NCBI GenBank assembly: GCA_000242935.3
Contig: CP007053.1
Span: forward strand, 5,131,001-5,195,000
From: Opitutaceae bacterium TAV5
GTDB taxonomy: Bacteria; Verrucomicrobiota; Verrucomicrobiia; Opitutales; Opitutaceae
DNA length: 64,000 bases
Direction: 5' to 3'
This document shows, one piece after another, positions 54,755 to 64,000 of this stretch. Made by a program: the position numbers and the translations under genes. Below the pieces are notes generated by a model. It was not told the origin of the DNA, did no database searches, and worked only from the letters and a program-made list of their open reading frames with translations. Positions within the stretch are counted from its first letter, which is position 1. Every line of letters starts with the position of its first letter.

Positions 54755-54846
54755 GGAGAGGTGGCTGAGTGGTCGATAGCGGCGCTTTGCTAAAGCGTTG
54801 TAGGTGTAACAGCCTACCGGGGGTTCGAATCCCCCCCTCTCCGCCA
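54755..54846 (+). tRNA. tRNA-Ser (GCT anticodon)
   Basis: A 92-base gene including encoded CCA. The acceptor stem GGAGAGG pairs with CCTCTCC, the anticodon loop is TTGCTAA, a long variable arm of serine type is present (TGTAGG...CCTAC), and the T arm is GGGGGTTCGAATCCCCC. It reads AGC/AGT codons. A mobile-element recombinase gene starts 284 bases downstream. Confidence 0.96.
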
Positions 54847-55129
54847 GTTTACTTTGGCTCTGAACCGTTTTTTTGATCGCTAAAAATCGCTCAACTTACT
54901 GATAGTCATTAAATTACGTAAGTGTCATTTTTACGGTTCATGCGATAAGTTCTGCTTTAGGGATTGGCCGAACGTTGCGAAAGAGGCTCCGGGAACGTCC
55001 TGCGGGAGGGATCGCTAAAATTTTCGGCGTGAAAATTTCTGGTATAATGGCAGAGTAAGAGTCGAACCAAATCAACCCGGGGCTGAGGCCAATAGGATCG
55101 TCCCAATCAACCTAAACGAAGGTTTTTTC
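54847..55129. other. AT-rich spacer between tRNA-Ser and the recombinase gene
   Basis: No gene is seen. The stretch is clearly AT-richer than its surroundings. GATCGCTAAAA occurs twice, at 54875-54885 and 55010-55020, 135 bp apart. An extended -10 lies at its right end. This is where an attachment site of the downstream element would be expected. Confidence 0.6.
55040..55048 (+). promoter_or_regulatory. Extended -10 promoter of the recombinase gene
   Basis: TGGTATAAT, a perfect TATAAT (55043-55048) preceded by TGn. The -35 region is poor, as usual for extended -10 promoters. It stands about 80 bases before ATG 55130. Confidence 0.65.
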
Positions 55130-57226
55130 ATGAGAGCGATCCCGTCTGTCCCGACGGCAGGTGCCTGCACCGTGCCCGTTGCCATCTACACCCGCGTTTC
55201 CACTGTCAACCAGGTTGGAGGACGCTTTGATTCCTGCGAAAGTCAGGCCGCTGTTTGCCGCGACTATATTCGGAAACAGGCCGGCGAAGGCTGGTTTGAA
55301 GTCGCCTGTTTTTCCGACCCTGCCTACTCGGGCAGTTCGCTAAACCGCCCCGGCATCCAGGCGCTCAAGCGCCAGATCGAAGCCGGGAGCGTCAAAGTTG
55401 TCCTGATTTTCAAACTCGAACGCGTGCTGCGCAGCACGGACGAGTGGGGACCGTTTCGGACTTTCCTGCAAAAGCACGACTGCAAGCTGGTCAGTCCGAC
55501 GGAGGACCTGAGCGACGATACGCCTTCGGGTCGCCTGAAAAACAACCTGATGATGAGCGTGGCGGAGTATGAACGGCTGAACACGGCCGAGAAGATCCGG
55601 ATCAAGCTCAACGAGCAGGCCAAGCGCGGATTCTGGACCGGAGGCCAGGTCCCCTTCGGATACCTCTACGACGAGACCACCCAGGGGCTCACCCCTCACC
55701 CCGACGAGGCACCGATCCTTCAGCGTATTTTCAAACTCGCGTCGCAACTGGTGCCGCTCACGGAGATCGCCAATATGATCAACTCGGAAGGCATCCGCAC
55801 CCGCGCCCGCATATTCAAACGCCGCGACGGCAATCGCGAGGACATCGGAGGGAAACGCTTTCGTTCGGACATCCTGCGGAGGCTGATCAAACGCCCGCTC
55901 TATGCGGGCCGGGTGCGGATGAACGGAAAGGAATACCCCGGCCAGCACGAGGCGCTGGTGACGGATGAACTGTGGGAAAAGGCCAACGCGGTCATCGCGA
56001 CCTCCCTCCAACCCGCGCGCTGCCGGCTGCGGACTCGCGACAAGCATTTTCATATCCTGAAAGGGATAGTCCATTGCGGTTGCTGTGGGCGGACCATGAT
56101 CCCCAACGCGAGCGGCAAACTGGCTCCGGACGGCAAGCCCTACCGTTACTACACCTGCGGCTACACCCACAAGGAAGGCCCCGAAGCGGCCTGTCCGGTG
56201 CGGCACGTCTCGGCGACCGGGCTGGAACTGGCGGTCACCGGCTTTCTTGGTCGATGCGGGCAGCATCCCGAGGTGATTGCGGCCACCATCGAAAGCGCTC
56301 GTCGCCATCGTCAGGCGGACCGCGTGCCGCTGCGCGAAAAGCTGACGCAAATCGAGCACACCCTGGATGGCCTGGCCTCGCAGTTGCGCAACTGTGCGCA
56401 AATGCTCGCCGTGGGCGGGCTCGCCTCACTCGACGATCTGATGCGGGACCAGATTGGGCAGTTGCAGGATGAAAAACAGCGGTTGATTGTGGAAAGGGAG
56501 CACCTGAACCGCGAACTGGCGGCCTGCGAACAGGGGGATCTGGAGGTTGAACGCATCCGGCAGTCGCTTTCGCGTTTTGGCGAAATACTCCCGACGCTGT
56601 CGCAGGATCACCAGCGAGATTTGCTGCTGCTTTTTGTGGAACGGGTGGAGGTGCGTCCTTGCCCGTCCTCCCGCGTGCCCGGGGATGCACCCGCCGGAGC
56701 GCGTTTTCTTGATCTTCGTCTGAAACTGCGGATCGGGCGCCTGGTTGAAGGCATGGAAGAACGTCTGGTCATCGAACACCGCCTGCCCGCTCCGGCCTCG
56801 GGAGGGGATGTCCGCATGCTGACGCTACCGGTCCTCGTGATTCTTGCACCGACCGGTTGCCGCGCTCCGGTCAGCCTGCTGGCTCCGTTTCCGTGCGAGT
56901 TGGGCACGGGGCCGCACACCGCGTCCCAACCGGCCGCCAAGCCGCCTGCGCAGCATGCCATCCATCGCGCCCGGGCGTGGGCTCGCGAGTTGGAGGATAA
57001 TCCCGGCTTGACGCGGGTGAAGCTGGCCGCGCGGGAAAACATCACGCCCGGCGCGGTGACTCACTGCATGAAGCTTCTGCTTCTGGCCGACGAGATCCAA
57101 ACCTTCCTGCTCAGCCTCACCCAGGCCGGCGACATGCGCCGCTACAGTTTTACCCGGATGCAGGCGCTGGCCGAGTTTCCGCAGGACGAACAACGGCGGC
57201 GCTTTGCCCTGATACAACAAGGATGA
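55130..57226 (+). CDS. Large serine recombinase
   Basis: A 698-residue site-specific recombinase. The resolvase domain starts at YTRVSTVNQ with the catalytic Ser in that motif; IFKLERVLRS and LKNNLMMSVAEYERLNTAEK complete it. A recombinase domain follows (GYLYDETTQGL, LIKRPLYAGRV), then a zinc ribbon (HCGCCGRTM ... CGYTHKEG) and a coiled coil (about 385-480). The last 110 residues hold an HTH-like segment (LAARENITPGAVTHCMKLLLL) beyond the usual end. Such enzymes integrate phages and ICEs. It is transcribed toward the - strand genes that follow. Confidence 0.93.
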   Translation: MRAIPSVPTAGACTVPVAIYTRVSTVNQVGGRFDSCESQAAVCRDYIRKQAGEGWFEVACFSDPAYSGSSLNRPGIQALKRQIEAGSVKVVLIFKLERVLRSTDEWGPFRTFLQKHDCKLVSPTEDLSDDTPSGRLKNNLMMSVAEYERLNTAEKIRIKLNEQAKRGFWTGGQVPFGYLYDETTQGLTPHPDEAPILQRIFKLASQLVPLTEIANMINSEGIRTRARIFKRRDGNREDIGGKRFRSDILRRLIKRPLYAGRVRMNGKEYPGQHEALVTDELWEKANAVIATSLQPARCRLRTRDKHFHILKGIVHCGCCGRTMIPNASGKLAPDGKPYRYYTCGYTHKEGPEAACPVRHVSATGLELAVTGFLGRCGQHPEVIAATIESARRHRQADRVPLREKLTQIEHTLDGLASQLRNCAQMLAVGGLASLDDLMRDQIGQLQDEKQRLIVEREHLNRELAACEQGDLEVERIRQSLSRFGEILPTLSQDHQRDLLLLFVERVEVRPCPSSRVPGDAPAGARFLDLRLKLRIGRLVEGMEERLVIEHRLPAPASGGDVRMLTLPVLVILAPTGCRAPVSLLAPFPCELGTGPHTASQPAAKPPAQHAIHRARAWARELEDNPGLTRVKLAARENITPGAVTHCMKLLLLADEIQTFLLSLTQAGDMRRYSFTRMQALAEFPQDEQRRRFALIQQG

Positions 57227-57233
57227 TCCCGGG

Positions 57234-62645: not shown

Positions 62646-62744
62646 GATGAATACGCAGGTTGATGTGACCGGAAAACGACCGTCTTCCGGGAGAGCGATG
62701 CGGGGTAGCCGAGATGTGTGGGAGGAAGTTGTCGGGTTATATGG

Positions 62745-63962
62745 TCAGAGGACGCGGAGGATTTCTTCTACAGAAGTGTGCCCGGCGGCAGCCGCTGACA
62801 GACCATGCTGCCAGAGCGTGAGGACGCCGGACTGGGCGTGGAGTTTTTCAAATTCCGCCATCGGCGCACTGGCGGCGACGAGCGGGAGATACGGAGCGGC
62901 GGGAATGACCTCGTGCAGGCCGATCCGTCCGCGATAACCGCGCTGCTTGCAGGCCGGGCAGCCCGTATCCGAGGCCCGGGCAAAGCGCGCGTCGGGCAGA
63001 TGGTATTTTTCCGCAAGGCGGGCGTTCTCCGGGTGCGGCTGCTTGCACTGCGGGCAGAGTCGCCGGACGAGCCGCTGGGCGGCGACGAGCCGGAGCGAGG
63101 CGGCGAGGAGGAATGGTTCGACGCCGAGATCGAGCAGGCGCGGGATGGCGGCGAGCGCGTTGTTGGTGTGCAGGGTCGAGAGCACCAGATGTCCGGTGAG
63201 CGCGGCGCGGACGGCGAGCTGCGCGGTCTCGGTGTCGCGGGTCTCGCCGACAAGGATCACGTCGGGATTTTGTCTCAGCAGCGAGCGGAGCGAGGAGGCG
63301 AAGGTCAGTCCGATTTTTTCGCGGATCTCGGTCTGGCGAATCACGGCCAGTTCGTATTCGACCGGGTCTTCCAGCGTGCAGATGACCCGCCCGCGGAAGT
63401 CGAGCGCGTGCAGGGCGGCATGGAGCGTCGTGGTTTTACCGGAGCCGGTGGGACCGGTCAAAAAAATCAGGCCGGCGGGACCGTGCAATGCGTCATGCAG
63501 CGCAACAGATTGCTCCGCCGTCAGGCCGAGGCCGGGAAACTCCTTCACCGGCATGGCTTGGTCGAGCAGGCGCACGACGAGGCTTTCTCCGTGAACCGTC
63601 GGCAGGCTGCTGATGCGCAGATGGATGTTTTTTCCGTCCTCGTTCAACCGGGCGCGTCCGTCCTGCGGCAGACGTTTTTCGGTAATGTCCATGCTGCCGA
63701 AAATCTTGATCCTCGCCAGCAGCGGTTCCCGCTGGGCAAGAGGCAGCCGTGCGTGTTCCAGCATGGCGCCGTCGATGCGGAAGCGGACCAGCAGGCAATC
63801 CTCCTTCGGCTCGAAATGCACGTCGCTGGCCTCCTCCTCCGCCGCTGCCGTCAGGGTGGATTGGAGGATTCGGGTGACGTCCGGCGCGTCCGCCCCGGGC
63901 GGAAGTTCGGGAGCGGAAAAACGCGGGAAGTGCGCGGAGACTTTTTCGAAAAGCGGGTGCAT
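62745..63962 (-). CDS. GspE/PilB-type assembly ATPase, short form
   Basis: A 405-residue secretion/pilus ATPase. Walker A is GPTGSGKTTTLHAALHAL; the Asp box VICTLEDPVEYE, Walker B LRQNPDVILVGETRD and His box LVLSTLHTNNA follow. The zinc site is CPQC...CPAC near residue 315. Usual GspE/PilB proteins have 500-600 residues; the N-terminal N1 domain that binds GspL or PilC is missing. It powers pseudopilus extension. Confidence 0.93.
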   Translation of the reverse strand: MHPLFEKVSAHFPRFSAPELPPGADAPDVTRILQSTLTAAAEEEASDVHFEPKEDCLLVRFRIDGAMLEHARLPLAQREPLLARIKIFGSMDITEKRLPQDGRARLNEDGKNIHLRISSLPTVHGESLVVRLLDQAMPVKEFPGLGLTAEQSVALHDALHGPAGLIFLTGPTGSGKTTTLHAALHALDFRGRVICTLEDPVEYELAVIRQTEIREKIGLTFASSLRSLLRQNPDVILVGETRDTETAQLAVRAALTGHLVLSTLHTNNALAAIPRLLDLGVEPFLLAASLRLVAAQRLVRRLCPQCKQPHPENARLAEKYHLPDARFARASDTGCPACKQRGYRGRIGLHEVIPAAPYLPLVAASAPMAEFEKLHAQSGVLTLWQHGLSAAAAGHTSVEEILRVL

Positions 63963-63983
63963 GGAAAAATGCGGCGAGTCCGG

Positions 63984-64000
63984 TTATTTGATGAGCCGGG
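63984..64000 (-). CDS. End of a further gene of the same operon (partial)
   Basis: A TAA at 63984-63986 on the - strand ends a frame that reads RLIK before the stop and continues past the window edge. It would lie 21 bases before the ATPase start. Only a few codons are visible. Confidence 0.3.

Follow-up and report, generated by a model that had tools for sequence, protein, structure and literature searches.

A candidate integrative and conjugative element with its own type IV pilus genes beside tRNA-Ser in Opitutaceae bacterium TAV5

Opitutaceae bacterium TAV5 is a Verrucomicrobium of the termite gut. The window studied here, 64,000 bp of its chromosome (contig CP007053.1, hereafter C1, positions 5,131,001 to 5,195,000), ends with a large serine recombinase gene beside tRNA-Ser and a run of type IV filament genes cut by the window edge, which raises the question of whether they form one mobile element and what the filament would do in it. 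A model's reading of the sequence alone, made without database searches, had proposed such a unit. We extended the analysis range to 132,000 (coordinates are in window numbering; adding 5,131,000 gives the position on C1). The locus is probably a 68.8-kb integrative and conjugative element (ICE) at the 3' end of tRNA-Ser(GCT), carrying a VirB-type type IV secretion system (T4SS) without VirB11 and a separate type IV pilus as the mating-contact organelle.

Boundaries, transfer genes and pilus module

The 12-bp attachment (att) core CTCCGCCAGTTT, which consists of the tRNA 3' end and 4 bp beyond it, occurs three times in the 132 kb, once at the tRNA and twice at the far end (Table 1), and no copy was expected in shuffles of the right-hand locus (L012). 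Both right-hand copies have an upstream arm of about 47 bp in common. The G+C content was 0.67 before the tRNA; the core had 0.60-0.65, the last cargo 0.49, and a tandem segment 0.52, and beyond 127457 the value rose to 0.66. Based on the att core positions and this G+C profile, the main element is predicted to span 54.85-123.63 kb, with a 3.8-kb segment apparently stacked behind it at the same site (72.6 kb in all). The right flank is host-like, with parts present in 32 of 38 relatives, and the predicted empty attB is the junction ...CCCCCCTCTCCGCCAGTTT to TTGGCTGCC.... The att cores enclose an integrase, a MobF relaxase, a coupling protein, and VirB4, the gene content of an ICE. These results, which include the far att site to be sought beyond 64 kb, support the proposal that a type IV filament system is carried by a single mobile element.

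Most gene calls of the sequence-only reading were confirmed by profile searches, namely the large serine recombinase by tRNA-Ser, the phage-type adenine methyltransferase, and GspE/PilB with two pseudopilins. Its claim of a common strand holds for the methyltransferase and the pilus genes, all on the minus strand, but not for the recombinase, which lies on the plus strand. The pilus genes are read from beyond 64000 down toward the recombinase, and the gene run cut by the window edge extends to about 76.3 kb, with the T4SS and pilus genes end to end on one strand.

The module contained the components of a type IV pilus: an assembly ATPase, a platform protein, a secretin, and pilins with the GFxxxE motif. 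The secretin and GspF, which the sequence-only reading proposed to look for beyond 64 kb, lie directly upstream. The ATPase scored 452 bits with the GspE model and 421 bits with the PilB model, below the GspE equivalog cut-off of 630. Of the alignment complex, PilMN was tentatively assigned by fold, the PilP-like protein by its T2SSB domain, and the GspM/PilO-like gene by position, size, and weak homologues. The GspL/PilN-like gene matched no family, and its structure model (mean predicted local distance difference test score, pLDDT, 74) gave PilM:PilN, EpsL, and GspL as the best Foldseek matches in the PDB (E down to 8.5e-8). A profile search of the PDB with the PilP-like protein gave a borderline GspC match only.

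Pilins 1 and 2 share 71% amino acid identity, and their tandem genes (60993-62645) are identical at 175 of 180 bases over about codons 20-80 and at 60-80% in later blocks. This pattern points to gene conversion, or to selection acting on the assembly helix, and divergence after the helix would fit a changed surface on a constant core. No PilT retraction ATPase was matched in the element, whose single PF00437 gene is GspE; PilT is not universal among type IV pili. Prepilin peptidase, another component sought beyond the window, is absent from the element, and the one host copy lies 2.8 Mb away (C1:2414756). The GspH/I/J/K pseudopilin set expected of a type II secretion system was not found. Neither a PilV adhesin nor a shufflon was seen among the element's open reading frames (ORFs).

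Within the T4SS, VirB8, VirB9, and VirB6 matched no family above cut-off, and their order and topology fit. Searching the PDB with profiles yielded no usable match for VirB8 or VirB9 and a borderline TraF match for VirB10. No gene for the VirB11 ATPase was found in the element, an absence also known from some accepted T4SSs such as that of F (PMC12857230). We considered GspE as a stand-in for VirB11 and rejected it; the two pilus-free chromosomal elements of TAV5 also have no PF00437 gene nearby.

Recurrence among relatives and the tRNA-linked recombinases

Homologues of VirB4 were found in 32 of 289 sampled Verrucomicrobiota genomes, along with 21 further loci. One VirB4 clade (support 100/100) has the pilus module directly after VirB10 in each of its 16 testable members (four more members end before the module and are outside the 16); none of the 17 sister elements has it there. 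This clade unites the pilus-bearing chromosomal elements and is nested among pilus-free ones in the VirB4 tree, with VirB4 identities of at least about 63%, compared with at most 58% for the 17 pilus-free elements. Elements above the former value with enough sequence had VirB10 followed by PilP, GspF, and pilin 3, and then, where the contig reaches, the secretin, GspE, pilin, PilMN, and small genes. Since the sister elements have this T4SS but no pilus, the pilus resembles an addition to a transfer apparatus that already functioned, and it appears from the tree and gene order to have been acquired once, onto an older pilus-free design. A candidate role of the PilP-like gene as a general T4SS part was rejected: a hidden Markov model of the long ORF matched all loci, and the domain alone matched pilus-bearing elements only.

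TAV5 itself carries two pilus-free chromosomal relatives of the element (C1:5,520,218 and C1:1,347,170). Additionally, its 99,831-bp plasmid has a second, diverged T4SS, pilus, and MobF set (mostly 23-39% identical) on a very long branch of the VirB4 tree; therefore, the pairing of T4SS and pilus is present in two divergent elements. In a plasmid collection, VirB4 matched only plasmid NZ_CP109797.1 of Termitidicoccus mucosus, and GspE matched generic ATPases of type II secretion systems and type IV pili. On the Termitidicoccus plasmid (L121), VirB4 matches six hypothetical proteins and the T4SS and pilus genes are split into short ORFs, probably by sequencing frameshifts. PLSDB labels this plasmid as non-mobilizable, although mobF is present.

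At five loci of relatives (L080, L081, L061, L070, and L077), a secreted protein of variable length lies between pilin 3 and the secretin, with InlB-type repeats that were recognised by eye, without a family search. It is plausibly an adhesin. A similar protein is encoded near the pilus cluster of the TAV5 plasmid.

The recombinase has the domain order Resolvase, Recombinase, Zn-ribbon, all three above cut-off, and is the only PF07508 gene product of the TAV5 genome. Its best NCBIfam match is CcrB, far below the CcrB cut-off. Its homologues (loci L134-L153 and L172-L184) adjoin the 3' ends of tRNA genes, mostly 260-320 bp away, for Ser (four anticodons), Arg, Gln, Glu, Tyr, Pro, and Asn. A tRNA lies within about 500 bp in 22 of 33 rows of the recombinase tree, where the tRNA density of a 745-kb background predicts about 1.6%, the rows not being independent. 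Clustering of the tRNA labels on this tree exceeded that in each of 200 shuffles. The Gln-associated recombinases are oriented opposite to the tRNA.

A homologous recombinase beside a tRNA accompanies the T4SS-pilus set in three further genomes (Arg in G075; Gln and Tyr in G170; Glu in G328). In G328, the tRNA-Glu 3' end has an exact 24-bp direct repeat at a distance of 113 kb (E 2.8e-8); the intervening element follows the TAV5 order of integrase, pilus, T4SS, coupling protein, ParA, and relaxase. Within the available sequence, att repeats were not found for the Gln and Tyr loci of G170, the Arg loci of G075 and G319, or the Ser locus of G324. Thus, the gene set sought elsewhere is present at different tRNAs, and the arrangement named as refuting the proposal, pilus genes at a conserved chromosomal place without the recombinase, was not found in relatives.

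A broader history is evenly balanced in our judgement: in one Verrucomicrobiota family of elements, a VirB11-less T4SS may have taken up a complete type IV pilus once, downstream of VirB10, while its large serine recombinases adapted to tRNA 3' ends as targets and moved among isoacceptors (Ser, Arg, Gln, Glu, Tyr, Pro, and Asn). Such targets are commonly credited to tyrosine integrases.

Coordinates, small genes and cargo

Table 1. Features of the element and its integration site
Feature	Position	Strand	Evidence
tRNA-Ser(GCT), integration site	54755-54846	+	ARAGORN
Left att core	54839-54850	+	exact 12-mer
Large serine recombinase (integrase)	55130-57226	+	PF00239, PF07508, PF13408
Dam-type N6-adenine methyltransferase (Dam/phage_N6A)	57870-58313	-	PF05869 1.1e-23
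Small conserved protein ending the gene run	58326-58800	-	conservation
Small conserved protein, 75 aa	58823-59050	-	conservation in relatives
PilO/GspM-like	59246-59731	-	position, size, weak homologues (one in G328)
PilM-PilN/GspL-like fused protein	59728-60993	-	AlphaFold2 model, Foldseek
Pilin 2, 256 aa, GFTLLE motif	60993-61763	-	pseudopilin models
Pilin 1, 256 aa, GFTLLE motif	61875-62645	-	TIGR02532 19.4 bits, cut-off 16.3
GspE/PilB-type assembly ATPase	62745-63962	-	PF00437 393.8 bits; TIGR02533 452 bits
Secretin (3' end only inside window)	63984-65411 (C1:5194984-5196411)	-	PF00263 6.6e-43
Pilin 3	65428-66297	-	
GspF/PilC	66307-67512	-	PF00482 above curated cut-off
PilP/GspC-like lipoprotein	67514-68203	-	T2SSB (GspB/GspC-like) domain
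VirB10	68200-69225	-	PF03743 above curated cut-off
VirB9-like	69222-70058	-	order, size, topology
VirB8-like	70037-70702	-	order, size, topology
VirB6-like	70713-71816	-	order, size, topology
VirB5-like	71925-72758	-	order, size, topology
VirB7-like lipoprotein	72755-72997	-	order, size, topology
VirB4 (VirB4/TraC)	72972-75593	-	P-loop_TraG above curated cut-off
VirB3-like	75590-75931	-	order, size, topology
VirB2-like	75980-76291	-	order, size, topology
Coupling protein, VirD4-type	108151 to about 109730	-	PF02534/PF12696 above curated cut-off
ParA-like	110126-110995	-	
MobF relaxase	111763-114534	+	MobF family above curated cut-off
Right att cores	123617-123628 and 127446-127457		exact copies of left core

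Among the small ORFs listed between 57 and 59 kb, only the two in Table 1 are conserved in relatives, the one ending the gene run being kept in pilus-free sister elements too, and several others are shadow frames. A homologue of the Dam methyltransferase was not found at the relatives' loci examined.

The element carried various cargo genes. Between VirB2 and the coupling protein, a long insert (76351-107200; the equivalent G328 gap is about 4.5 kb) encodes a giant DUF3739 haemagglutinin (82765-95157), ShlB/FhaC, ExbB with a LamG domain, ExbD, TonB-like, Porin_5, AraC, and SLFN/AlbA_2 proteins. TAV5 has six DUF3739 proteins. Adjoining the relaxase (115137-116764, L012) are a helix-turn-helix gene and then a HipA-like gene, read from the sequence with no family above cut-off, a probable toxin-antitoxin pair. 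A PARIS-like pair follows at 119428-121657 (L012:7428-9657), with AriA-like ATPase (PADLOC 3.4e-29) and AriB-like (5.4e-9) genes. The low-GC tandem segment (123629-127445, L012) contains QueC-like (93.8 bits) and OGG-like genes with a kinase-like protein adjoining, and no cyclase was seen in it. QueC-like and OGG-like genes are accessories of type IV CBASS (cyclic oligonucleotide-based antiphage signalling system).

Proposed working, alternatives and known systems

The sequence itself shows which genes the element carries and in what order, where its boundaries lie, that it recurs beside other tRNAs, and that the pilus module is confined to one clade; every functional step, above all the role of the pilus in mating contact, we infer. 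The serine recombinase would excise the element as a circle, which the MobF relaxase would nick, remaining on the DNA. The VirD4-type coupling protein would pass the relaxase-bound DNA to the VirB2-VirB10 T4SS, working without VirB11. The module downstream of VirB10 (PilP-like, GspF, pilin 3, secretin, GspE, the duplicated major pilin, PilMN, and PilO) would build a separate filament from pilins that the host's one prepilin peptidase processes, and this filament would reach and hold recipient cells while the T4SS carries the DNA. An accessory role of the pilus is suggested because pilus-free sister elements exist.

Several observations weigh against this proposal. VirB2, 3, 5, 6, 7, 8, and 9 were named from order, size, and topology only, and the VirB8 structure model (pLDDT 56) was too poor for a structure search. 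The right flank opens with a dnaE fragment that the junction cuts short, no relative among 38 genomes joins this flank to tRNA-Ser as an empty site, and the closest relative, G289, has a tRNA-Ser without element genes nearby, but with different neighbours. In addition, the InlB-repeat protein is missing from the cluster of the TAV5 element and the coupling protein gene lies 31.9 kb from the T4SS genes; therefore, the TAV5 copy may be impaired. The two last points, together with the haemagglutinin and TonB genes in that gap and the tandem segment at 123.6-127.4 kb, a remnant containing transposase debris, would also fit a decaying, non-transferring island whose pilus is kept for host adhesion or DNA uptake. 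We give this little credence, as the core ORFs are free of stops and the relaxase, coupling protein, VirB4, integrase, and all pilus genes are intact. That recombinase and pilus are chance neighbours, a small serine-recombinase island beside a resident pilus locus, is hardly credible: the Dam gene and the exact recombinase were not common to the T4SS loci first fetched, but the att cores enclose the whole gene set, and in G075, G170, and G328 a homologous recombinase beside a tRNA shares its contig with the same set. This recurrence at several tRNAs led us to reject it.

The pilus genes, on the same strand and directly downstream of VirB10 in all members, with their own secretin and with VirB11 absent, might instead be part of the DNA conduit, T4SS ATPases moving the DNA across the inner membrane and pilus and secretin out of the cell, for which the PAPI-1 pilus, described as essential and possibly chimeric (PMC12857230), is a precedent. 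We consider such a conduit unlikely. Unlike PAPI-1, the element retains VirB10 and VirB2 to VirB9-like genes, the 17 sisters have the same T4SS without a pilus, and the two pilus-free TAV5 elements have no PF00437 ATPase nearby, so GspE does not replace VirB11. A small type II secretion system exporting a surface adhesin, namely the relatives' InlB-repeat protein, is improbable as well, despite an ATPase nearest to GspE, a GspB/GspC-like domain, and that secreted protein inside the relatives' clusters. The two near-equal 256-aa major pilins, the missing GspH/I/J/K set, a GspE score far below the cut-off, and the lack of the repeat protein in the TAV5 cluster all argue against it. Taken together, the evidence favors an ICE with a separate mating-contact pilus.

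To call this an undescribed system, as the sequence-only reading did, is too strong, since ICEs with their own type IV pilus are a known kind from Proteobacteria. PAPI-1 of Pseudomonas aeruginosa is likewise a chromosomal ICE with a complete (type IVb) pilus cluster and conjugation genes; its pilus is needed for transfer and its tip binds recipient lipopolysaccharide (PMC5297154). However, the only clear T4SS homologues of PAPI-1 are two, VirB4 and VirD4 (PMC12857230), whereas the TAV5 element has a VirB-type set including VirB10, MobF, and a serine recombinase. The IncI plasmid R64 also combines a full T4SS and a separate type IV pilus, which boosts liquid mating as an accessory (PMC12857230). 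R64 has a Dot/Icm-like T4SS, a MobP relaxase, and a thin pilus with PilV and a shufflon, in contrast to the VirB/TraC-like T4SS and MobF of the TAV5 element, in which no shufflon or PilT was found. The TAV5 and Termitidicoccus mucosus plasmids likewise carry T4SS, type IV pilus, and MobF genes on one replicon; the TAV5 plasmid differs from the chromosomal element in lacking a PF07508 recombinase and in having a second ATPase, which is PilT/VirB11-like. The element represents a lineage built differently from these known systems. This lineage, its combination of a VirB-type T4SS with a pilus, and a serine recombinase associated with tRNAs appear to be new, and they were not found in the open-access literature (most subscription papers being outside this scope).

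The recombinase shares its domain order with the large serine recombinases of the TndX, Ccr, and phiC31 types from ICEs, integrative and mobilizable elements, and phages, whose usual targets lie inside genes, whereas the TAV5 family stands beside tRNA 3' ends. Reviews assign tRNA 3' ends to tyrosine integrases and gene interiors to serine recombinases (PMC5704250, PMC10654092). A large survey of serine recombinases scored disrupted protein genes as targets (PMC10083194), and therefore tRNA targets could have gone unseen there. If active, these enzymes would integrate DNA site-specifically at conserved tRNA ends without disrupting the gene.

These elements bear on the question of whether a conjugative type IV pilus serves cell contact only, as in R64, or is a path for DNA, as in PAPI-1. 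With one chromosomal element with a pilus, two without, and one plasmid with a pilus in TAV5, close elements that have the same T4SS with or without a pilus offer a natural comparison, even inside one strain.

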